Below are positions 6,329 through 29,252 of a DNA stretch of 64,000 nucleotides, one piece after another. Under the pieces are notes generated by a model, which worked only from the letters and a program-made list of their open reading frames with translations, did no database searches and had not been told where the DNA came from. A program made the translations under genes and the position numbers. Source of the DNA: Selenomonadaceae bacterium (GTDB taxonomy: Bacteria; Bacillota; Negativicutes; Selenomonadales; Selenomonadaceae); contig JAFRRH010000052.1 in assembly GCA_017428215.1 (NCBI GenBank), positions 1 through 64,000 on the forward strand, given 5' to 3'. Each line of letters begins with the position of its first letter. Position 1 is the first letter of the stretch.

Positions 6329-7135
6329 GTGATTAAATTGTTTGAATATGAATTTATGCGCAACGCCTTAACAGCAGTGTTGTTGGTGACGCCGCTATTC
6401 GGCTTGCTGTCGACAATGGTTGTATCGAACCGCATGGCGTTTTTCTCTGATTCGTTAGGGCACGGCGCGTTCACGGGTATAGCGATTGGAGCGTTAATCG
6501 GCGTCGGCTCGGAAATGGTCGGCTTGCTGGGTTTTTCGATAATTTTCGCGCTGTTGATAACTTACATAAAAAACAAATCTCATGCGGGCGCGGACACGGT
6601 TATAGGCGTCTTCAGCTCAACTGCAATAGCACTTGGGCTAATGATAATGTCGGCGGGCGGACAATTCAATAAGTTTTCAAGATTTTTAATCGGCGACTTG
6701 CTTAGCATAACCAAAGGCGACTTAACAGGGTTGTTTATAGTCTTTTTAATCGTGCTGATAAGTTGGGCAATACTTTTCAATCGGCTGTTGATAATTTCGG
6801 TAAATCAGACGTTAGCACGCAGTCGAGGAATAAAAACTCAAGCGGTTGAATCGATATTTGCGGTGTTATTGGCAATCGTCGTGGCGTTAAGTATACAATG
6901 GGTCGGCATTTTAATAATCAACGCGCTATTAGTTTTGCCGGGCGCGGCGGCGCGTAATGTGACGAATTCAGTTAAAAGTTACCATGTATTGAGCGTATTA
7001 ATCGCGCTGGGGTCGGGCTTAGTCGGATTGTTTTTGGCGTATGAAATAAATTCGGCGGCGGGCGCAACAATCGTAGTATTCGCGGCGATAATTTATTTTG
7101 TGACGCTAATTTTAAAGCCGCGATTTATAAAGTAG
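6329..7135 (+). CDS. ABC-3 family metal-ion transporter permease (ZnuB/MntB type)
   Basis: About 268 residues with eight or so hydrophobic helices match the ABC-3 permease family that imports zinc, manganese or iron. Typical segments are visible: FSDSLGHGAFTGIAIG (the cytoplasmic loop contacting the ATPase), HAGADTVIGVFSS, and WVGILIINALLVLPGAAAR. The start is uncertain. I chose GTG 6329, giving a short head before FMRNALTAVLL; ATG 6278 and ATG 6356 are also in frame and none has a convincing ribosome site. No matching ATPase or binding protein is adjacent, which is unusual because these systems are normally one operon. It is followed immediately by an EamA transporter. Confidence 0.88.
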   Translation: MIKLFEYEFMRNALTAVLLVTPLFGLLSTMVVSNRMAFFSDSLGHGAFTGIAIGALIGVGSEMVGLLGFSIIFALLITYIKNKSHAGADTVIGVFSSTAIALGLMIMSAGGQFNKFSRFLIGDLLSITKGDLTGLFIVFLIVLISWAILFNRLLIISVNQTLARSRGIKTQAVESIFAVLLAIVVALSIQWVGILIINALLVLPGAAARNVTNSVKSYHVLSVLIALGSGLVGLFLAYEINSAAGATIVVFAAIIYFVTLILKPRFIK

Positions 7136-7144
7136 GTGGCAGTT

Positions 7145-8038
7145 TTGAAAAGAAGTTTAGCATTAATCGTAGTAGGAATGGCGGGAATACTTTGGGCGAG
7201 TTCGGGCGTCGCCGTGCAAGATTTTTTTATGCATTCGGAAAAAAACGCAATGGAGCTGACAAATATCCGCATGTGTTTAGCTGGTGCGATTTTAATAATA
7301 TTTTCAACACGACGTAAAAGTTTTTGGCTGACATTGGGCATTTTAAATCGTCATGGGTGGCTTTGGCTTGACTTGATAATTTACGGGATAATCGGAATGA
7401 TGTTAATGCAGTTCACGTACTTTCAAGCAATTTCAATCGGCGGGGCGGCGGCGACAACTGTAATCTGTTATGCATGTCCGGCGATGGTCGTAATATGGGA
7501 ATCATTTTATCACAAAAAATTTCCAAAGCGCGGAGAAGTTATAGCGGTGATTTTGGCGATGAGCGGCGTATTTTTATTGGTCACAGGCGGCAATCCGACA
7601 AAATTGCTCGTGCCGCTCGGTTGTGTAGTGTGGAGTTTAGCAAGCGGCGCGACATTTGCCTTCAGCGCGATATTCCCTAAACATTTATTCGCAAAAAAAA
7701 TAGACCCGTACTTTTTGACGGGCGTAGGAATGTTTATTGGCGGCTTATCGACGTTTGCATTGATTGACGATAAAAATTGGTTGCCGTTTTTTGCGCCAGA
7801 AGTTTTATTCGACGTTAGCTGGATAATAATTTTCGGAACGGTCGGAGCATTTTTGAGTTTCAACGCGGGCTTAAAATTTTTAACGCCGGAGGAAGCGTCA
7901 ATCACGGTGACAACGGAGCCTGCGGCGTCAGTTATAATCAGTTGGATAATTTTCGGAACGACGTTTGGATTAATCGAATCATTCGGGATAATCTTAGTTT
8001 TGCTGGCAATCGTCATGCCGTCAATAGTCAAACGATAG
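7145..8038 (+). CDS. EamA/DMT-family transporter
   Basis: About 297 residues with ten predicted membrane helices in two EamA repeats. The first repeat begins GMAGILWASSGVAV. The second contains SLASGATFAFSAIFPK and ends with the family hallmark LTPEEASITVTTEPAASVIISW. This drug/metabolite transporter family exports metabolites or amino acids; the substrate cannot be read from sequence. TTG 7145 is preferred because AGGTGG stands 6 bases before it; GTG 7136, right after the previous stop, lacks a site. It is co-transcribed with the upstream permease. Confidence 0.88.
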   Translation: MKRSLALIVVGMAGILWASSGVAVQDFFMHSEKNAMELTNIRMCLAGAILIIFSTRRKSFWLTLGILNRHGWLWLDLIIYGIIGMMLMQFTYFQAISIGGAAATTVICYACPAMVVIWESFYHKKFPKRGEVIAVILAMSGVFLLVTGGNPTKLLVPLGCVVWSLASGATFAFSAIFPKHLFAKKIDPYFLTGVGMFIGGLSTFALIDDKNWLPFFAPEVLFDVSWIIIFGTVGAFLSFNAGLKFLTPEEASITVTTEPAASVIISWIIFGTTFGLIESFGIILVLLAIVMPSIVKR

Positions 8039-18792: not shown

Positions 18793-18816
18793 GAAAACAA
18801 AAAGGACGTGATGATA

Positions 18817-19626
18817 TTGAGCACGGCAAGAGAAAATTTAAAATCTGCGCGGCGAATCGTTATAAAAGTCGGGACGAGCACGCTGGCGCATTCGGATACG
18901 GGTAAATTAAACTTATACAGAATTGAACATTTGATTCGCGAGATAGCTGACTTGCACAACGCAGGCAAGGAAATAATTTTCGTGAGTTCGGGCGCAATCG
19001 CGGCGGGTATGAATAAACTCGGAATAAAAATTAAGCCGCAGACAATCCCCGAAAATCAAGCATTGGCGGCAGTTGGGCAAGGTGTCCTTATGCACATCTA
19101 CGAAAAATTTTTCGCAGAGTACGGACAAACTATCGGGCAAATTTTGTTGACGAAAGAAAATGCCGTTGACGAACACGCCCGCGAAAATTCTCGAAACTCC
19201 TTCCAAGCAATTCTCGCTATGGGCGCAATTCCCGTCGTTAACGAAAATGACGCGGTCGGCGTTGACGAAATTAGAATCGGCGACAACGATAACCTTTCAG
19301 CAATCGTCGCCGCAATGATTGACGCTGAAGTTTTAATTATCCTTAGCGACATTGACGGGCTTTACGACAGCAATCCGAAACTTGATAAATCTGCGCGGCT
19401 AATCGACGAGGTAGCAGAAATTAATTCTGATATTGAACGAATCGCTGGAGGCGCAGGAACAAAGCTTGGTATAGGCGGCATGTTTACTAAAATTCAAGCC
19501 GCAAAGCTCGCGACTTCAAACGGCGTAACAATGTTAATCGTAAACGGCTCAACGAACGGAAATTTGCGGCGAGCTTTGAACGGCGAATCAGTCGGCACAA
19601 TTTTTCCAAGGAGGGAATCATCATGA
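18817..19626 (+). CDS. proB: Glutamate 5-kinase (without PUA domain)
   Basis: About 269 residues. ProB phosphorylates glutamate, the first step of proline synthesis. Amino-acid-kinase motifs are VIKVGTSTLAH, FVSSGAIAAGMNKLG, VVNENDAVG, GDNDNLSAIVA and GGAGTKLGIGGMFTKIQAA. The protein stops at the end of the kinase domain, lacking the C-terminal PUA domain of the E. coli type; such short forms are known in other bacteria. TTG 18817 is about 10 bases after AAAGGA; ATG 18811 and GTG 18808 are alternatives. It overlaps the next small gene by ATGA. Confidence 0.92.
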   Translation: MSTARENLKSARRIVIKVGTSTLAHSDTGKLNLYRIEHLIREIADLHNAGKEIIFVSSGAIAAGMNKLGIKIKPQTIPENQALAAVGQGVLMHIYEKFFAEYGQTIGQILLTKENAVDEHARENSRNSFQAILAMGAIPVVNENDAVGVDEIRIGDNDNLSAIVAAMIDAEVLIILSDIDGLYDSNPKLDKSARLIDEVAEINSDIERIAGGAGTKLGIGGMFTKIQAAKLATSNGVTMLIVNGSTNGNLRRALNGESVGTIFPRRESS

Positions 19627-19781
19627 ACGGAAAGTTTTTGGCATTAATCGCAGGCGGCTTGTTGACGTTCGGGAAAATTTTAGAGTTGTTTCCGACAATT
19701 ACAATCGTGGCAAATATTTTGGGTGGCGGGGGCGCAGATACAATTTTCCTCGCAGAAAATCTTGAGGAGGACTTTGTATGA
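19623..19781 (+). CDS. Small 52-residue membrane-type protein
   Basis: A 52-residue frame overlapping proB (ATGA) and the NlpC/P60 gene (ATGA) at its two ends, with AAGGAGGG 6-7 bases before its ATG. This ribosome site is stronger than those of many neighbours, so the gene is probably translated. The first 35 residues are hydrophobic (GKFLALIAGGLLTFGKILEL, then a VANILGGGG turn), with an acidic tail (ENLEED). It resembles a small membrane protein, but I know no family for it. Its own end contains the GAGGAGG used by the next gene. Confidence 0.75.
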   Translation: MNGKFLALIAGGLLTFGKILELFPTITIVANILGGGGADTIFLAENLEEDFV

Positions 19782-21103
19782 GAAAAAATTTTCTAATCTT
19801 GTTTGGAGTGGTGCTTATGCTCTTTTCTGCGACCGCGCAGGCGGCAGGAATTTCAATTCAAGATAACCGCGCGACCGCTGACTATTGGACGGGCAAAAAT
19901 AAAAACGGCGAATCCGTCTTTGTGTCAACGGCAGATTTGGACATGCTCAACTTGCAAATTCGGCAGAAAAGCGCAAATACAATCGTCGATTTAGCAAATT
20001 ATCCCGAAAAAGTTTATACGCAATGGATGACGAATAAAATTACCGCGACAATGAAGCTTGGCGGCTTTGATAAAGAAGAACTTCCGAAACTTTTTAAGGG
20101 CGGCACGGCGTTAACGGAATTCAGTTACACGCAAGCTAGAAAAAATTGCGGACTTGACGCTTTGCCCGCCGTGTGTGTCGTTCGTTACGCCTTGACGGTT
20201 GACAGAACAAATCTTAGACTTTTGCCTGAAGCGGCGGGTTGGTTTGAAAGTGAAAACGATACGCACTACGATCAACTGCAAGGAACTGCTATTGACCCCA
20301 ATGAACCGGTTATCGTTTTGATTGACAGCCAAGATAAAGAATTTGTTTTCGTCGAGTCGCGAACTTATGCCGGTTGGGTTAAGCCCTCCGCGCTTGCTTT
20401 TACCGATAAAGTAACGTGGTTAAAATACGCCGAACCGCAAAGTTATCTGACGGTTATCGCGAGCCGCAAGACAATTCCTCAAGGTAAAGCTTTTTATCAA
20501 ATGGGCGGTAGAGTTTTGCTCCGCGCTCCCGATTTGCAAAAAGACGGTAGCTGGGCTATTAACGTTCCCGCCGCCGATGCCAACGGAATTTTAATTGAGC
20601 AGGGCTTAAATATTCCCAACGATAAATTCGTCGTCAAAGGAACGCTTGCTTGCTCCGAGAATAATTTGATTCGTCAAGCGTTCAGATTTTTGGGCGAAGG
20701 CTACGGTTGGGGCGGCTTAGAAAATAATGTTGACTGCTCCGCCTTTGCGCAAGATGTTTATCGCTCCGTAGGAATTGAATTGCCACGCGACACCAGTAAG
20801 CAGGAAAAAGCTATGGCGCGTTCAATTTCCCTTAATAACATGACACGAGAACAACGCTTGGAAATTCTTAAAAAATCTAAGCCAGGCTCTTTGCTGTTCA
20901 CGAAGGGGCATGTTATGATATATCTTGGCACCGACGACAACGGCGAACCACTTATCATTCACGCGCTAAGCAGTTACTACACTTTCGACAATGGACAGAC
21001 AGCTAAGCACTATATAAGAAAAGTTTTGGTTAGCGATTTGCACTTCATGAACCGCGACAAAGTTGAAATGATTGACAGACTGACGAGCGTCGGGAATTTC
21101 TGA
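19778..21103 (+). CDS. Exported NlpC/P60 cell-wall hydrolase with SH3 regions
   Basis: 441 residues with a signal peptide (MRKNFLILFGVVLMLFSATAQA). Residues about 60-290 hold SH3b-like wall-binding regions (RTNLRLLPEAAGWFES, TYAGWVKPSAL). The C-terminal NlpC/P60 domain (about 290-425) has the catalytic Cys in NNVDCSAFAQDVYRSVGIELPRD (about 319) and His in TKGHVMIYLG (about 377). Known relatives cleave the gamma-D-Glu to diamino-acid bond of peptidoglycan stem peptides in the periplasm. It sits unusually between proB and proA. Confidence 0.9.
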   Translation: MRKNFLILFGVVLMLFSATAQAAGISIQDNRATADYWTGKNKNGESVFVSTADLDMLNLQIRQKSANTIVDLANYPEKVYTQWMTNKITATMKLGGFDKEELPKLFKGGTALTEFSYTQARKNCGLDALPAVCVVRYALTVDRTNLRLLPEAAGWFESENDTHYDQLQGTAIDPNEPVIVLIDSQDKEFVFVESRTYAGWVKPSALAFTDKVTWLKYAEPQSYLTVIASRKTIPQGKAFYQMGGRVLLRAPDLQKDGSWAINVPAADANGILIEQGLNIPNDKFVVKGTLACSENNLIRQAFRFLGEGYGWGGLENNVDCSAFAQDVYRSVGIELPRDTSKQEKAMARSISLNNMTREQRLEILKKSKPGSLLFTKGHVMIYLGTDDNGEPLIIHALSSYYTFDNGQTAKHYIRKVLVSDLHFMNRDKVEMIDRLTSVGNF

Positions 21104-21104
21104 G

Positions 21105-22868
21105 ATGGATAAGCAGGAAAAATTAATCGCCCGCCTCTTCAAAGACACGCTGATAATTTTTCTGTTGTCAATGTTCGTCTCGACAATCGGCTATGTAATT
21201 GACGGAATACTTACGGGAGAATTTCTCGGCACGGAGGCAATCGCGGCGTTCGGTTTGACAATGCCCTATCAAAAATTCGTGACGATTTTTCCAAGCGTTG
21301 TCGTACTCGGAATGCAAGTCCTGTGTAGTAAATTTTTGGGCAGAGGCGAATTGCACACGGCGAACGGAATTTTTTCGTTGGCAGTGATCGTGACGTTGAT
21401 TGCGGCATTATTAACGATGTGCGCAACGCTTTTATTTACAACTCAAATTGCAGATATTCTCGACGCAAAAGAAGAACTTGGAGTTATTCGCCCCTTGACG
21501 ATTGATTTTCTGCAAGCTTATTCGTTCGGTTTGCCGGCAATCACAGCAGTTACGATTTTTACGCCGATAATGCAACTTGACAACGACAGACAGCAAGCGG
21601 TAATTTCAGCAGTAGTATTGGCTCTTTGTGACATTGCTGGCGATTTGATAAATGTTTTTGTACTCGACGGCGGACTTTGGGGCATGGGCATTGCCACGAC
21701 GATAAGTTATTGGATTGCGGCGGGCGTTCTGCTATTGCACTTCCTCAAGGCAAATTCAAATTTTAAATTCCTGCCTGAATTCGTGAGCTTAAAACATTTT
21801 CGCCAAATGATTTTAATTGGACTTCCCGTGATTTTGGGACGCGGCACAGCGGTTTTGCGTCTTGAGTTTTTTACGAGAATGTCGGTTGCATTGGCAAGCG
21901 GTGTCGGTGTTGCCGCATATGCCGCGATTGAAAATTTTTCGGGACTGTTGGAAATAATCCCAAAAGCATTCGGCGCGTCAACGCAAATGATTGGCGGAAT
22001 TTTAATCGGCGAACAAGATAAAAATTCAATCCTGCGCCTGATGAAACTCGCGTTGAAATATTCGCTGATAATTTCCTTGATAATAACGGCGGCTGTATTT
22101 TTGGGCGCACCGATAATCGCAGACCTTTACACGCACGACGACGCGACGGGTTATCAAATGACGCTTGAGGGATTTCAACTTGCGATAGCGTTTTTGCCAC
22201 TGTGTGCAGTCGGAATAATTTTTACGTATTATTATCAAGCTTGCGGACGATTTAAACTCGTGAGCAATTTGACAGTCGCGGGCAATGTCGGATTCGTCGT
22301 GCCGATAGCTTTACTCTTGACGCCACATTTCGGAATAAACGGACTGTGGTTATCCTTCCCGTTGAGTTATGTCGCGTTTCTGCTTGTTATATTTTTTATA
22401 ACGTGTCGACATTGCGGAAGAATAACTTTTCGGCTGGAAGATTATCTGCTGTTGCCCGAAGACTTCGACGTTGCCAACGATAAGCAACTCAACATAACCG
22501 TCACGAACAAAGCGGAGGTTTTGGGGCTTTCGGAACGAACTCAAACTTTTTGCGAAACGCAAGGTATCGACGGGCGGCGTAGTATGTTTGCAGGAATTTG
22601 TATCGAGGAGATGGCGGGCAATATCGTTGATTACGGCTTTGATGACGGCAAGAAACATTTCGTCGACGTGCGAGTTATCGTAAAGGGCGAGCAAGTTATA
22701 ATTCGATTGCGCGACGATTGCCGGCCGTTTGACCCGAAAAAATGGGCGAAGATTCATAATCCTGAAGATGCCGCCTCTCATATCGGGATAAGGCTTTGCA
22801 GAAAAATTTCTAAGGATTTCAATTATGTAAACGTCTTGAAGTTAAACAATCTGATTATCAAGCTTTAA
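21105..22868 (+). CDS. MATE-family transporter fused to a GHKL-type ATPase domain
   Basis: 587 residues. Residues 1 to about 435 are a twelve-helix MATE transporter (GEFLGTEAIAAFGLTMPYQ, LGRGELHTANG, AYAAIENFSGLLEIIPKAFG). Residues about 465-587 are a soluble HATPase_c_2 domain, as in anti-sigma-factor kinases: N-box-like CIEEMAGNIVDYGFDDG, G1-like IRLRDDCRPFDP and IGIRLCRKIS. MATE proteins export cations or drugs against Na+ or H+; the ATPase half suggests a sensory or kinase-like role, which is inference. It starts one base after the NlpC/P60 stop. The 3' end is duplicated downstream (see 22868-23035). Confidence 0.88.
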   Translation: MDKQEKLIARLFKDTLIIFLLSMFVSTIGYVIDGILTGEFLGTEAIAAFGLTMPYQKFVTIFPSVVVLGMQVLCSKFLGRGELHTANGIFSLAVIVTLIAALLTMCATLLFTTQIADILDAKEELGVIRPLTIDFLQAYSFGLPAITAVTIFTPIMQLDNDRQQAVISAVVLALCDIAGDLINVFVLDGGLWGMGIATTISYWIAAGVLLLHFLKANSNFKFLPEFVSLKHFRQMILIGLPVILGRGTAVLRLEFFTRMSVALASGVGVAAYAAIENFSGLLEIIPKAFGASTQMIGGILIGEQDKNSILRLMKLALKYSLIISLIITAAVFLGAPIIADLYTHDDATGYQMTLEGFQLAIAFLPLCAVGIIFTYYYQACGRFKLVSNLTVAGNVGFVVPIALLLTPHFGINGLWLSFPLSYVAFLLVIFFITCRHCGRITFRLEDYLLLPEDFDVANDKQLNITVTNKAEVLGLSERTQTFCETQGIDGRRSMFAGICIEEMAGNIVDYGFDDGKKHFVDVRVIVKGEQVIIRLRDDCRPFDPKKWAKIHNPEDAASHIGIRLCRKISKDFNYVNVLKLNNLIIKL

Positions 22869-23035
22869 TTGAAGTGCGCGACGACTGCCGACCTTTTGAC
22901 CCGAAAAAATGGGCGGAAATTAATAATCCGGAAGATCCCGCCGCTCATATCGGGATAAGGCTTTGCAAAAAAATTTCTACCGAATTTGATTATGTAAACG
23001 TTCTCAAGCTGAACAATCTGATTGTAAAAATTTAA
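22868..23035 (+). pseudogene. Orphan second copy of the ATPase 3' end
   Basis: These 168 bases read, in a frame shifted relative to the MATE gene, IEVRDDCRPFDPKKWAEI and continue to NNLIVKI followed by TAA. They match the last 55 or so codons of the gene before (22701-22868) with about ten changed residues. No start or ribosome site precedes it. It is a fossil of a tandem paralog. Confidence 0.85.
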
Positions 23036-23051: not shown

Positions 23052-24305
23052 ATGTTTATGAAAGACCACGTAACTAAACAAGCGCGGCGGGCAAAAGAAG
23101 CGTCGCGAAAATTGGCGTGCATTCCTGAAGAAATTCGCAACACAGCACTTTTAGCAATGGCGTGGGACTTGGAAACACGGCAAGACGAAATTTTAGAGGC
23201 GAACGCCAAAGAGGTCGCGGCGGCTAAAGAACGGGCTACGCGGCTCAACATGATTGACAGACTGATTTTGACGCCCAAAAGAATTCACGACATGGCAGAG
23301 GGAATTCGTCAAGTTGTAAAGTTGCCTGACCCGCTGGGCAAATTGGATTTTGAAACTGTGCGCCCGAATGGCTTAAAAATTCGTCGTGTGCGCGTTCCAT
23401 TTGGCGTCGTCGGTATCGTTTACGAGGCGCGCCCAAATGTCACGGCGGACGCAATCGCGCTTTGCATTAAATCGGGCAATGCTTGCCTTCTGCGCGGCGG
23501 TTCAGAGGCTGTTCGTACCAATAAAAAAATCGTCGACATTATGCGCGAAGCGGCGGTTGAAAAGGGTTTGCCGGAAAAGTCTATTGAGTTTATCGGCATT
23601 CTTGACCGCGACGCCGTTGTTGTCATGTGCAGATTGCGCAAACTCGTCGACGTGATTATCCCGCGTGGCGGCGTCGGCTTGATTACCCGCGTCATTGAGC
23701 ACAGCACCGTTCCCGTTATCGAAACTGGCACCGGCATTTGTCACACGTTTATTGATAAATCAGCCGATATTGACATGGCTATTAAAATTTGTATGAATGC
23801 AAAAACCTCGCGCCCGTCGGTTTGCAATGCAATGGAAACTTTGCTGATTCATAAAGACATTGCGAAAGAATTTTTGCCAAAAGTCGCGGCGGCTTTGATT
23901 GAGGCTAAAGTTGAACTGCGCGGCGACGAGGCGAGCAGAAAAATTTTCCCCGACATGAAAGAGGCTGTCGAGGAAGATTGGACGACTGAATACAACGATT
24001 TGATTTTGTCCGTTAAAATTGTTGACGACGTGGACGCCGCGATTGAGCACATTAATAAATACAGCAGTCAACATTCTGACGCTATTATTACTCGCGACGC
24101 TAACAACGCCAAAAAATTTGAACTTATGGTTGATTCGGCTGATGTTTACGTCAACACTTCGACGCGGTTCACTGACGGCTTTGAATTCGGATTTGGCGCG
24201 GAAATCGGTATCAGTACGCAAAAACTTCACGCTCGCGGACCTATGGGACTTGAGGCTTTAACGACGATGAAATATTTAATCGAAGGCGATGGACAAATTC
24301 GCTAA
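23052..24305 (+). CDS. proA: Gamma-glutamyl phosphate reductase
   Basis: 417 residues, the usual length. ProA reduces glutamyl-5-phosphate to glutamate semialdehyde with NADPH. Motifs: VPFGVVGIVYEARPNVTADA, CLLRGGSEA, DVIIPRGG, VIETGTGICHTFID with the catalytic Cys, and FGFGAEIGISTQKLHARGPMGLEALTT near the end. AAGGAAGG lies before the ATG. Its normal partner proB is 3.4 kb upstream, with three other genes inserted between them. Confidence 0.95.
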   Translation: MFMKDHVTKQARRAKEASRKLACIPEEIRNTALLAMAWDLETRQDEILEANAKEVAAAKERATRLNMIDRLILTPKRIHDMAEGIRQVVKLPDPLGKLDFETVRPNGLKIRRVRVPFGVVGIVYEARPNVTADAIALCIKSGNACLLRGGSEAVRTNKKIVDIMREAAVEKGLPEKSIEFIGILDRDAVVVMCRLRKLVDVIIPRGGVGLITRVIEHSTVPVIETGTGICHTFIDKSADIDMAIKICMNAKTSRPSVCNAMETLLIHKDIAKEFLPKVAAALIEAKVELRGDEASRKIFPDMKEAVEEDWTTEYNDLILSVKIVDDVDAAIEHINKYSSQHSDAIITRDANNAKKFELMVDSADVYVNTSTRFTDGFEFGFGAEIGISTQKLHARGPMGLEALTTMKYLIEGDGQIR

Positions 24306-24565: not shown

Positions 24566-25165
24566 TTGAAAATTGGAATAATGGGAGGAACCTTTGACCC
24601 AATACATTTGGGACATTTGGCAACGGCGGAGGCTGTTCGCGAAAATTTTTCACTCGACGAAATTTTATTTATCCCCGCCGCTCGCCCGCCCCATAAGCTC
24701 GGAAAAAAAGTTACGGACGAAAGCCACCGCTTAGAAATGACAATCCTCGCGACGCAATCAAACAAATTCTTCCGCGTCTCGGATATGGAACTTAAGCGCA
24801 CGGGACTTTCCTACACGCTTGACACGATGAACGAACTGCATAAAACTTTTGGACACTCGACGGAATTATTTTTTATAATCGGCGCAGATTCGTTAGCGGA
24901 TTTATCTAAGTGGCACGCGGCAAAAGAATTAGTCGCTAAATGTCACTTCATAGCGACGACACGGCAGGGCGTGGACGTGAACTTTTCAGCGGTAGAAAAA
25001 TTTTTCGGCGCGGCGGCAATGGAACATATTCACCGAGTGACTACACCAGGACTTGAAATTTCCTCAACCGACATTCGCGAAAAAGTTAGGTGCGGTCGTT
25101 CGATAAAATATCTTGTCCCCGAAGTTGTCGAAGAATATATTTTGCGGGAGGAGCTTTATCTGTGA
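24566..25165 (+). CDS. nadD: Nicotinate-nucleotide adenylyltransferase
   Basis: 199 residues. NadD joins nicotinate mononucleotide and ATP to give deamido-NAD in NAD synthesis. The nucleotidyl-transferase signature GGTFDPIHLGHL is at residues 7-18 and [10 protein letters not shown] near the C-terminus is the second ATP-binding motif. TTG 24566 with GGAG 10 bases upstream gives the family start MKIGIMGG; ATG 24551 lacks a site. The stop overlaps the GTG of the first GT61 gene. Part of its 3' end recurs 1.87 kb downstream. Confidence 0.93.
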   Translation: MKIGIMGGTFDPIHLGHLATAEAVRENFSLDEILFIPAARPPHKLGKKVTDESHRLEMTILATQSNKFFRVSDMELKRTGLSYTLDTMNELHKTFGHSTELFFIIGADSLADLSKWHAAKELVAKCHFIATTRQGVDVNFSAVEKFFGAAAMEHIHRVTTPGLEISSTDIREKVRCGRSIKYLVPEVVEEYILREELYL

Positions 25166-26784
25166 CAAATTTGAATTATCTTTACAATCCCGAACCCGCT
25201 AAAAAATCTCCGGTTTTCAATAGAAAATATTTCGTTGACAAAAAGTTGAGTTTCCGAACCATTGAAGACGGTATGATTCTTCCGCCTAGCCCTATTGACG
25301 ATGACGGAAAAAAGAAATTCCTCGGCTACGGTGGCATTGTCGATAACAATGGAAAATATATAAAAGAAAGTTTTATTCATTACGAAACCGGCGGAAAGTA
25401 TACGCCGCCCTCCGAATCAATTCAACGTAGCAATGAAACTGTTATTTATCTAGGAACTTCTTGGCCTGTATGGGGACACGTAATCACTGACAATCTTCGT
25501 CGTTTGTGGTTCTTGAATAGCGAATACTTTAAATCGTTTAAAAATTGTCCACTCGTTTACATTATAACTGGGAGTAATATTAAGCAACAAAAAAACTTCT
25601 GTAGATTGCTTGAAATTTTAGGAGTTGATGTTGAAAAACTTCGCCCAATAACTCAACCAACACAGTTTGAAAAGATTATTCTTCCCGATGAATCCTTTGA
25701 TACTGTTTCGCTAAAAGGATTTACGGCGGAATATAAAGAGACTATTGATCGCTTAAGAGAATTTGCGCTGAAAAATTATACGCCAATCTCAAGCAAAAAA
25801 ATTTACTACTTTCACGGCTTAAGAGCGCAGATTGGTGCAGAACGGCTTGCAGATTATTTAAAATCTAAAGGTTACGAGATAGTTTCGCCCGAAAAGTTAC
25901 CTCTCGATGAACAGCTCAATCTCTTGATAAAATGCGAAAGCTTTGCCTCGACGCTTGGCTCCTGCTCGCATAATTCGTTATTCCTTTGTGACAAAACAGA
26001 AGCCATTTTCATTCCTCGTAATCCCAACAGATTTACAGTTTATCAGCCGGTTATAGACGAACTCCGCTCTTTAAATGCAACTTATGTCGATACATCGTTG
26101 TCTATATGTGGCAATTATACATTGGGTCCGTTTTATTACATGCTTAGCGAGCAGTTAAAGAGATTTTTTGGCGATAAATTTGACGGCTACGAAGAAGAAG
26201 ACTTTAAAACTTTTTTGCAATATGTAAAATATTCGCTGGATAAGAATTATGTTCTTAATCAAAGTTTTGTAGCCGGATATGGTTCAATTCTCTCTGACTT
26301 TATAGAACAGTTGCGGCGGCGCAAGGATTTATTAGAAGATTTCGGAATGGATTCGTTTGACTGGAAAACATTTCAGCCGAAACTTAATTATCAAACGCAT
26401 GTCGCTGCTAGAGGTTGGAGCGATGGTTGGAAGGACGAGGATAAAATTAGCAATCCCCTCGACCAAAAATGGGACATTCAAGCGATTAAAATAAATTTCT
26501 CTCCTTACAAAGTATATTACTCTGTTTATTACAATGCCGAAGAAGGCTGGTCGGAAGAAGTTTTATCGCCGGATATGGCGGGCACGACCGGCAAAAGCAA
26601 ACCTATTTACGGCATCAGAATTCGTCTTGACGAGGCAGGCGCAAAGAAATTCGATATTCTCTACCGCGTGCATAAATTTGACGATACGTGGACAACTTGG
26701 GCTAAGAACGGCGAGGCGATTTATTCATACGGAATTAAATTAAATGCGATTCAAATAAAATTGGAAACTAAGGCGGATGCATGA
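25162..26784 (+). CDS. GT61-family glycosyltransferase with C-terminal ChW-like repeats, copy 1
   Basis: 540 residues. The first 350 resemble the GT61/DUF563 family: [52 protein letters not shown] and [18 protein letters not shown]. The C-terminal 140 residues show Trp-centred repeats like clostridial hydrophobic W domains ([43 protein letters not shown] with LNAIQIKLE). Such repeats are wall- or surface-binding in other proteins; here they may dock the enzyme. GTG start overlaps the nadD stop, with GGAGGAG about 9 bases upstream. It probably builds a surface glycan. Confidence 0.82.
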
Positions 26785-26809
26785 TAAGCCGCCAAATAGG
26801 AGATTATTT

Positions 26810-27037
26810 ATGACTATTGACGAAATGCGGCGCGAACTCCAACGCTGGCTAAAGAAAAGCAGATTCGCGCATTCAATCGGCGTGGCTGCTAAAGAATATA
26901 TTCACCGAGTGATGACGCCGGGACTTGAAATTTCCTCAACTGATATTCGCGAAAAAATTCGGCGCGGGTGTTCGATAAAATATCTCGTACCCGAAGTCGT
27001 CGAAGAATATATTTTGCGGGAGGAGCTTTATCTGTGA
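26810..27037 (+). CDS. Chimeric YqeK-head/NadD-tail frame
   Basis: 75 residues: the first 26 match the YqeK start ([20 protein letters not shown]) and the rest matches the NadD C-terminus ([13 protein letters not shown], ending ILREELYL). It keeps the yqeK ribosome site and the overlap into the next GT61 start, so it may be translated and used to couple that gene. It lacks the YqeK HD residues and the NadD HxGH motif, so no enzymatic role is expected. Confidence 0.75.
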
Positions 27038-28659
27038 CAAATTTGGATTATCTTTACAATCCCGAACCCGCTAAAAAATCTCCGGTTTTTAATAGAAAAT
27101 ATTTTGTTGACAAAAAGTTGAGTTTCCGAACCATTGAACACGGTATGATTCTCCCGCCTAGCCCTACTGGCGATGACGGAAAAAAGAAATTTCTTGGCTA
27201 CGGTGGCATTGTCGACAAAAATGGAGACTATATAAAAGAAAGTTTTATTCATTACGAAACCGGCGGAAAGTATACGCCTCCCGCCGAATCAGTTCAACGT
27301 AGCAATAAAACTGTTATTTATCTAGGAACTTCTTGGCCTGTATGGGGGCACGTAATCACTGATAATCTTCGTCGTTTGTGGTTCTTGAACAGCGAATACT
27401 TTAAATCGTTTAAAAATTGTCCACTGGTTTACATTGTAACTTGGAGTGATATTAAGCAACAAAAAAACTTCTGTAGATTGCTTGAAATTTTAGGAGTCGA
27501 TATTGAAAAACTTCGCCCGATAACTCAACCAACACAGTTTGAAAAAATTATTCTTCCCGATGAATCATTTAATATACTCTCTCCACTAAGCGGATTTACG
27601 GCGGAATATAAAGAGTCGATTGATCGTGTAAGAGACTTCGCGCTTAAAAATTGTACACCGACCTCAAGCAAAAAAATCTATTACTTTCACGACGTAAAAG
27701 CGCAGGTTGGCGCGGAACGGCTTGCAAAATATTTTAAAGCTAAAGGTTACGAAATTGTTCGTCCTGAAAGATTAACGCTTGATGAACAACTCAATCTCTT
27801 AATAAACTGCAAAAGCTTTGCCTCGACGCTCGGCTCCTGCTCGCATAATTCGTTATTCCTTTGTGACAAAACCGAATCAATTTTCATTCCGCGTAATCCT
27901 GATAGATTTACAGTTTATCAGCCGGTTATAGACGAACTCCGCTCTTTAAATGCAACTTATATCGATACATCGTTGTCTATATGTGGCAATTCTTTGATAG
28001 GTCCGTTTTATTACATGCTTAGCGAGCAGTTAAAAAGATTTTTTGGAGATAAATTTGACGGCTACGAAGAAGAGGACTTCACAAATTTTTTGCAATATAT
28101 GAAGTATTCGCTGGATAGTGGTAACGATCTTAATCAAGATTTTGTAGAGGGTTATGGTTCAATTCTCTCTGACTTTATAGAACAGTTGCGGCGGCGCAAG
28201 GATTTATTAAAAGATTTCGGAATGGATTCATTTGACTGGGATAAATTTCGTCCGAAACTTAGTTATCAAACGCATGTCGCTGTTAGAGGTTGGAATGATG
28301 GTTGGAAGAATGAGAATCAACTCAGCAATCCCTTAACTAGAAAAAATGATATTCAGGCGATAAAGATAAATTTACCTGGTTACAAAGTATATTACTCGGT
28401 TTACTATAATGGGCAAGAAGGCTGGTCGGAAGAAGTTTTATCGCCTAAAATGGCAGGCACGACCGGCGAATCTAAATCAGTTTACGGCATTAAAATTTGG
28501 CTTGACGAAACGGGCGCAAAAAAATTCGATATTCTCTACCGCGTGTACAAGTATGATGGCAAGTGGACTTCTTGGGCTAAGAACGGCGAAATAATTTATT
28601 CACATGGCATTAAGTTAAACGCGATTCAAATAAAATTGGAAACTAAGGCGGGTATATGA
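27034..28659 (+). CDS. GT61-family glycosyltransferase with ChW-like repeats, copy 2
   Basis: 541 residues, a diverged paralog of 25162-26784 with the same domain order: GT61-like part ([45 protein letters not shown]) then Trp-rich repeats ([43 protein letters not shown]). Changes are scattered, including [10 protein letters not shown] where copy 1 has SLKGFTAEY. Motifs seem intact in both, so both may be active on different acceptors. GTG overlaps the chimeric frame's stop exactly as copy 1 overlaps nadD. Confidence 0.82.
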
Positions 28660-28685
28660 TATAGCCGCCAAACGGGAGATTATTT

Positions 28686-29252
28686 ATGACTATTGACGAA
28701 ATGCGACGCGAACTCCAACGCAGGCTGAAGAAAAGCAGATTCGCGCATTCAATCGGTGTGGCAAATACGGCAGTCAAGTTGGCAAAAAGATTCGGCGTCG
28801 ATGAAACCAAAGCTTACATTGCGGGGTTGCTCCACGATTGCGCCAGAGAATTTGAGAATGAGGAATTGCCCGCGCAGGCTAAAATTCGCGGTATAAAAAT
28901 CGGCGAGGTCGAACGGGCAATGCCATTGCTCCTACATGCCTACATAAGCGCAAAAATGATTAAGGAAATTTACGGCGTAGACGATGCGGAGATTGCTCAA
29001 GCGATTTATCGGCACACAGTCGGCGCACCCGATATGACTAAACTCGATAAAATTATTTACTTCGCGGATATGATTGAGCCTAACAGAAATTATCCTGGCG
29101 TAGAAAAACTTCGCGCCCTTGCGGAGACTGCCGAGCTTGACGAAATTTTATTGACGGCGTTCAGCGAGTCGATTATATTCGTCGTACAAAAAAATTCTCT
29201 AGTGCACCCCGACACCGTCGCCGCCCGAAATTATTTGTTACTATGTAAATAA
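28686..29252 (+). CDS. yqeK: YqeK-type HD-domain hydrolase
   Basis: 188 residues. YqeK proteins are HD-domain, metal-dependent symmetrical Ap4A hydrolases. Visible: [20 protein letters not shown], the HD pair in IAGLLHDCARE, LLHAYISAKMIKEIYG, AIYRHTVG and LDKIIYFADMIEPNRNYPGV. An ATG with GGGAG upstream begins the gene. The usual nadD-yqeK adjacency is broken by the two GT61 genes. Confidence 0.93.
   Translation: MTIDEMRRELQRRLKKSRFAHSIGVANTAVKLAKRFGVDETKAYIAGLLHDCAREFENEELPAQAKIRGIKIGEVERAMPLLLHAYISAKMIKEIYGVDDAEIAQAIYRHTVGAPDMTKLDKIIYFADMIEPNRNYPGVEKLRALAETAELDEILLTAFSESIIFVVQKNSLVHPDTVAARNYLLLCK

Follow-up and report, generated by a model that had tools for sequence, protein, structure and literature searches.

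A MATE transporter fused to an RsbW/SpoIIAB-like GHKL domain in Quinella, and the fossil second tail behind its gene

What is a GHKL ATPase domain of the anti-sigma-kinase type doing at the end of a membrane exporter, and why is the gene for this combination followed by an out-of-frame copy of its own 3' end? Both questions arise from a single gene in the stretch of DNA analyzed here (the window: 64,000 nucleotides, positions 1 to 64,000 of the forward strand of contig JAFRRH010000052.1, assembly GCA_017428215.1). An earlier note, made from the sequence alone, had proposed that a MATE transporter carrying such a domain could couple transport to signalling, and that the copy of the last 55 codons behind the gene records a tandem paralog lost by recombination. 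The window's genome (G000) is a 2.82-Mb assembly in 73 contigs with a completeness of 88.6%, and we infer that its genus is Quinella (Selenomonadaceae, rumen); the closest orthologs in named records are from Selenomonadales/Selenomonadaceae MAGs, several of them ruminant-gut and including Quinella sp. 1Q5.

The fusion itself is borne out. The gene, which has orthologs in other genomes, is an intact 587-aa ORF at 21105..22868 on the forward strand, the strand of all locus features given below, and it starts one base past the stop of nlpC (19778..21103), an NlpC/P60 and SH3 peptidase gene that is its conserved 5' neighbour; proB (amino-acid kinase, Pfam AA_kinase, 18808..19626) and proA (aldehyde dehydrogenase family, Pfam Aldedh, 23052..24305) form the left and right edges of a locus recognized by synteny. 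The MATE transporter part covers aa 1-440 (21105..22424) and matches the Pfam MatE profile with E 6e-22 (78.5 bits against a curated cut-off of 24.9), and the GHKL domain, aa 441-587 (22425..22865), matches HATPase_c_2 with E 6.4e-7 (29.9 bits against 27.4). An AlphaFold (AF2) model of the full protein has a mean pLDDT of 88.0 and a pTM of 0.87, and Foldseek recognizes the MATE fold in it (3wbn, TMt 0.86). The product is thus predicted, from sequence and model, to be an inner-membrane MATE transporter with an RsbW/SpoIIAB-type GHKL C-terminus, with cation-coupled export the putative activity of its transporter half.

Two known domains are here in a real, conserved combination, and the fusion is old. 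Matches at E <= 1e-60 occur in 28 of 66 genomes of the genus Quinella, and an intact ortholog with 58-100% identity in 20 of the 66 (G000, G014, G035, G005, G070, G015, G061, G086, G068, G030, G032, G062, G077, G084, G064, G060 with two copies, G069, G071, G085 and G021). These intact orthologs, together with the many fusion paralogs present besides those at the proBA locus, led us to reject assembly error as the source of the fusion, the eventuality that the earlier note had named as fatal to it. In the genomes compared the ortholog has nlpC on its 5' side and proA on its 3' side, and the G060 pair sits between the two. Distant fusions of 580-615 aa extend to further Selenomonadaceae and to further families of the class, where 48 of 200 genomes have a GHKL-profile match and fusions are part of these; in the rest of the phylum such matches occur in 11 of 299 genomes, with distant fusions in a few. 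The architecture may be listed in domain databases. A full-text literature search, with preprints and most subscription journals outside its coverage, found no paper on MATE-GHKL fusions, and a word search of the Quinella genome paper (PMC9585023) gave zero matches.

Structural comparison places the GHKL half with the anti-sigma serine kinases. Modelled alone with AlphaFold (pLDDT 85.6, pTM 0.80), the domain has SpoIIAB as its top Foldseek match (E 1.5e-7) with RsbW and UsfX just behind, and VIA gives Z scores of 15.3 for UsfX, 14.4 for RsbW and 14.3 for SpoIIAB; the best five VIA rows, at Z 14.0-15.3, assign it to the anti-sigma-kinase fold, the top 12 (Z 11.7-15.3) include UsfX, RsbW, SpoIIAB and an RsbU-RsbW protein, and histidine kinases reach Z <= 8.2. 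Sequence resemblance is slight, with a profile E value against SpoIIAB of only 0.0095 and 7-14% identity in the best structural alignments with UsfX, RsbW and SpoIIAB. Because the top structural matches are anti-sigma factors, some in sigma-bound complexes, the domain could be read as an anti-sigma factor anchored in the membrane, which would hold a sigma factor directly until the MATE half binds its substrate; we consider this very unlikely, given that no sigma factor lies among the neighbours scanned and that the gene context is one of PP2C and STAS.

The nucleotide pocket is largely, though not wholly, that of the kinases. The N box ICIEEMAGNIVDYG (22596..22637) contains E501/E502 and N506; E502 and N506 align with SpoIIAB, all 21 orthologs compared retain the EE pair and the Asn, and we take E502 to be the catalytic Glu, and N506 the Mg-binding Asn, of the RsbW/SpoIIAB serine kinases. 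The G1 box RLRDDCRPFDPKKW (22704..22745) likewise retains its Asp in all 21 window-clade orthologs, but its first Gly is Cys (C539), so that all 21 read RDDC instead of RDDG, and the G2 region, H-I/V-G-I in the orthologs, is down to one glycine. These losses, along with the absence of partner genes near the window copy described below, are what one would expect if the GHKL half were degenerate and non-catalytic, binding nucleotide or a partner and regulating the MATE half allosterically with no phosphorylation switch at work here. We treat this as a tentative possibility, well short of an even chance, against which stand the invariant N-box Glu/Asn and G1 Asp, the RDDG glycine kept by an NRPS-linked paralog on contig C7 (and by several other paralogs), and strong purifying selection: nine of nine ortholog pairs give a dN/dS of 0.07-0.18 for the GHKL half, and the domain is therefore not decaying. 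The MATE half, at 0.11-0.36 in ortholog pairs, is also under purifying selection. For the ATPase pocket, which the earlier note had singled out for checking by structural prediction, the outcome is thus mixed: the fold of the anti-sigma kinases is there, as is most of the pocket, and the G1 glycine is not.

An association with partner-switch and nonribosomal peptide synthetase (NRPS) genes is evident from the neighbourhoods of related fusions. The context sample comprised 57 fusion-type ORFs in regions selected from match lists, with neighbours counted on the same strand within 5 kb; 12 of the 57 have no phmmer GHKL match and were counted by length, and some fusion-length matches (e.g. G014:C91, G035:C77, G032:C278 and G009:C220) stand outside the count. 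STAS, SpoIIE or HATPase genes lie near 20 of the 57 fusions and NRPS genes near 16, so that 32 have one or the other and 25 have neither; among the 45 ORFs with a GHKL match the numbers are 18 and 12. The same count for plain MATEs of Quinella gives 1 of 21 and 0 of 21, a difference with Fisher p values of 0.008 for STAS/SpoIIE/HATPase and 0.004 for NRPS when shared descent is ignored; the fusion counts are not independent, because the fusions are related by descent. Within Quinella only, the NRPS difference persists (12 of 41 fusions vs 0 of 21 plain MATEs, p 0.005), and that for STAS/SpoIIE/HATPase is 9 of 41 vs 1 of 21, with p 0.14.

Particular branches of the tree show the association at closer range. 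In a clade of eight fusions, a GNAT-like gene and a SpoIIE gene adjoin the fusion in eight of eight; the SpoIIE protein, scanned in one member, carries dCache and HAMP sensor domains, and next after this set come STAS and HATPase genes in L175, and in L179 a HATPase gene. The GNAT-like protein, of about 340 aa, is encoded between the fusion and SpoIIE in each of the eight (L126 at 6965-7996, L133, L135, L136, L138, L175, L179 and L181), and that of L126, the sole one scanned, has weak Pfam acetyltransferase matches below the cut-off. Outside the class, SpoIIE is on the same strand within 4 kb in four of the four fusions examined. The window clade falls inside a larger clade (support 0.977) together with seven STAS-APH-linked fusions, and in the STAS domains of the surveyed regions the key column, which we take to be the phosphorylated Ser of RsbV/SpoIIAA, holds Ser in 15 of 17, Thr in one and Gly in one.

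Several neighbourhoods are worth recording in their own right. The window genome's second fusion, only 28% identical to the 21105..22868 product, lies on contig C7 (L106, 2016-15301) in an operon of NRPS, NRPS, MATE-GHKL, a 459-aa protein, a STAS-APH fusion and NRPS. The pair formed by the 459-aa protein and STAS-APH is also present in L111, L112 and L171; the 459-aa protein has no Pfam match, and its best PDB sequence match, at E 0.3, is unconvincing. In L107 (5383-7979) a phosphatidylglycerol-lysyltransferase-like protein with a C-terminal STAS adjoins a plain MATE, in L113 (6255-7631) a PAS-adenylate/guanylate cyclase gene is immediately next to a MATE-GHKL fusion, and GT2-GH3 fusion proteins are encoded near MATE-GHKL in L114 (2601-5240) and L172 (3246-5819), with STAS-APH between them in L172.

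The window copy has none of this company: its neighbours are proB, nlpC and proA only, the context survey found no STAS, SpoIIE or NRPS gene beside it or beside the clade members L148 and L149, and there is no STAS on the window's contig, although the genome as a whole gives seven STAS matches. The proposed coupling of transport to signalling therefore draws its support from the gene context of relatives and finds no partners at the window's own locus. At the level of the family, gene order and sequence give good reasons to suspect membership of a partner switch. In such a switch the GHKL domain would bind a STAS partner and, in relatives, phosphorylate its conserved Ser, a PP2C phosphatase would undo the phosphorylation, and the bound or released state of STAS would couple the transport cycle to a cellular response; the direction could be either, with the transporter gating the switch or the switch gating the transporter. 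For the window copy, the partner may be encoded elsewhere, or the protein may be a binding-only version in which the G1 Gly has become Cys. Our fuller picture of the family is offered tentatively, and we would not be surprised to see it fail: MATE-GHKL proteins may be 'transceptors', exporters with their own anti-sigma-type serine kinase that form a partner switch with STAS-APH or STAS and a sensor PP2C and so tie export, which in many operons would be that of nonribosomal peptides, to cell regulation, with the proBA-locus branch of Quinella derived, orphaned and repeatedly lost.

Known systems offer parts of this arrangement. SpoIIAB, RsbW and UsfX (HATPase_c_2) share the fold, the N-box Glu/Asn and the G1 Asp, and relatives of the window protein have the STAS and SpoIIE neighbours; unlike them, the window protein is fused to a MATE, has Cys for the G1 Gly in its clade, and has no sigma factor among the neighbours scanned. 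The entire N-terminal 440 aa resemble the MATE transporters PfMATE, DinF, NorM and ClbM, the last an exporter of a peptide-polyketide, but the window protein has a cytoplasmic signalling domain in addition, and NRPS operons are where many of its paralogs lie. SLC26/SulP anion transporters bear a C-terminal STAS and so likewise carry one half of a partner-switch pair at the C-terminus of a transporter; in the window fusion that half is the GHKL kinase instead of STAS. In the BceAB-BceS flux-sensing modules a transporter is physically coupled to a GHKL-type kinase, but there the transporter is an ABC transporter and the histidine kinase a separate protein. CapK-CapS and VapK-VapS are cases in which a GHKL kinase acts on STAS outside classical sigma control, through HTH-STAS-GHKL or STAS-GHKL proteins with no transporter (PMC13373217).

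The second question, that of the tail, can be followed nucleotide by nucleotide. Tail 1 (22702..22868), delimited by alignment and by comparison with G014 and G035, is the working 3' end of the gene; tail 2 (22869..23035) follows directly in frame 2 after the stop and ends at its own stop at 23035. The two align over 161 nt with a score of 113, against 17 for the best of 500 shuffles, and differ at 28 of 171 nt. The insertion measured against five single-tailed orthologs comes to exactly 167 nt, that is 55 codons and 2 nt, and tail 2 is therefore out of frame. A second genome, G014, has the same double tail with substitutions of its own and a TAA within tail 2, and the double tail is therefore neither chance nor assembly error, which we reject as its source. 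The out-of-frame copy of the last 55 codons that the earlier note described is thus confirmed. Translation of tail 2 by frameshifting was also considered and is disfavoured by the internal TAA in G014.

Which tail is native is answered by G035, the nearest single-tailed relative. At the 17 sites that separate both tails in G000 and G014, the single tail of G035 agrees with tail 2 at 12, with tail 1 at four and with neither at one, and three of the four tail-1 letters fall at the junction, within the first 8 nt. In G000, identity to the G035 tail is 91.1% for tail 2 and 85.1% for tail 1; the tail tree pairs tail 2 with G035 at only 71% bootstrap and unites tail 1, tail 2 and G035 at 97%. The 16-nt spacer behind tail 2 is identical to that of G035, and tail 2 and spacer together resemble G035's single tail with its ribosome-binding site. 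On these grounds taken together we regard the fossil as the native tail. A plain 167-nt tandem duplication whose copies later drifted would account for the exact length of the insertion; it is improbable, because the non-coding tail 2 is nearer to G035 than the coding tail 1 is, the reverse of what drift in the copy released from coding would give. The tail-1 stop and a TAATT inside the tail meet at 22866..22870, read directly from the sequence as a microhomology join, and tail 2 would be what remains of the resident gene's own 3' end after a divergent copy bearing tail 1 was joined to it there.

The site 5' of proA in relatives bears on how that copy arrived. The reading covered the synteny genomes and 14 genomes that lack an intact ortholog; about 26 of the 63 proA-bearing genomes lie outside it. 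Two intact copies stand at the site in G060, with 75.8% DNA identity overall and 94% in one 150-nt GHKL stretch, a sign of conversion; in G019 the end of one copy precedes a downstream copy broken by a stop at codon 503. The ortholog is frameshifted in G010 and degraded in G020, only deletion remnants are left in G001, G017, G065 and G067, tail remnants adjoining proA recur in relatives, and five genomes have a clean nlpC-proA gap of 18-28 nt. With tandem pairs and remnants at the site, the loss of the second body from a tandem pair is the most natural route, and the join most likely came about by collapse of a pair of the kind still present in G060 and G019. The tandem paralogs that the earlier note suggested looking for thus exist at this very site, and its loss of a tandem copy here is plausible; what needs amending is the identity of the pieces, since the fossil is native and the live tail divergent, and tail 2 is therefore more than a defunct duplicate of the tail in use. 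No full second copy was seen in G000 or G014, and no donor for tail 1 was found in the window's own genome, where the only other fusion found is the 28% identical one.

The 3' end of a divergent allele could instead have been imported by homologous recombination with one illegitimate crossover and no tandem pair, an alternative that we regard as a serious one while placing it somewhat below even. The gene is mosaic at 21350-21499, where G000 is 93.3% identical to G005 and 75.3% to G035 with flanks about 94-95% identical to G035, and the grouping of both tails with G035 also fits import, but the tandem pairs in G060 and G019 and the recurrent remnants beside proA speak against it. Taking both questions together, our best joint explanation, which we hold with about equal belief and doubt, is that MATE-GHKL is linked to a STAS/PP2C switch and that the double tail arose by the joining of a divergent copy, most likely through collapse of a tandem pair. 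Elsewhere in the window, 25005-28762 is a tandem duplication of about 1.9 kb (25005-26886 vs 26877-28762, 88.3% identical) that contains a glycosyltransferase-like gene twice; its joint leaves an ORF at 26777-27037 in which the head of an HD-domain (yqeK-like) gene is fused to the tail of nadD, a second remnant comparable to the one behind the MATE-GHKL gene.

The tail fossil is a small, well-resolved case of gene turnover at one chromosomal site, ordinary though instructive: intact, tandem, broken, deleted and cleanly absent states of the proBA-locus fusion coexist in one genus. Partner switches made up of kinase, STAS and phosphatase are familiar as soluble systems that control sigma factors. 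If the proposal is true, a kinase half inside a drug or metabolite exporter would join transport physically and directly to such a switch, and would offer a hypothesis open to test on how rumen and gut bacteria time or sense nonribosomal peptide export.
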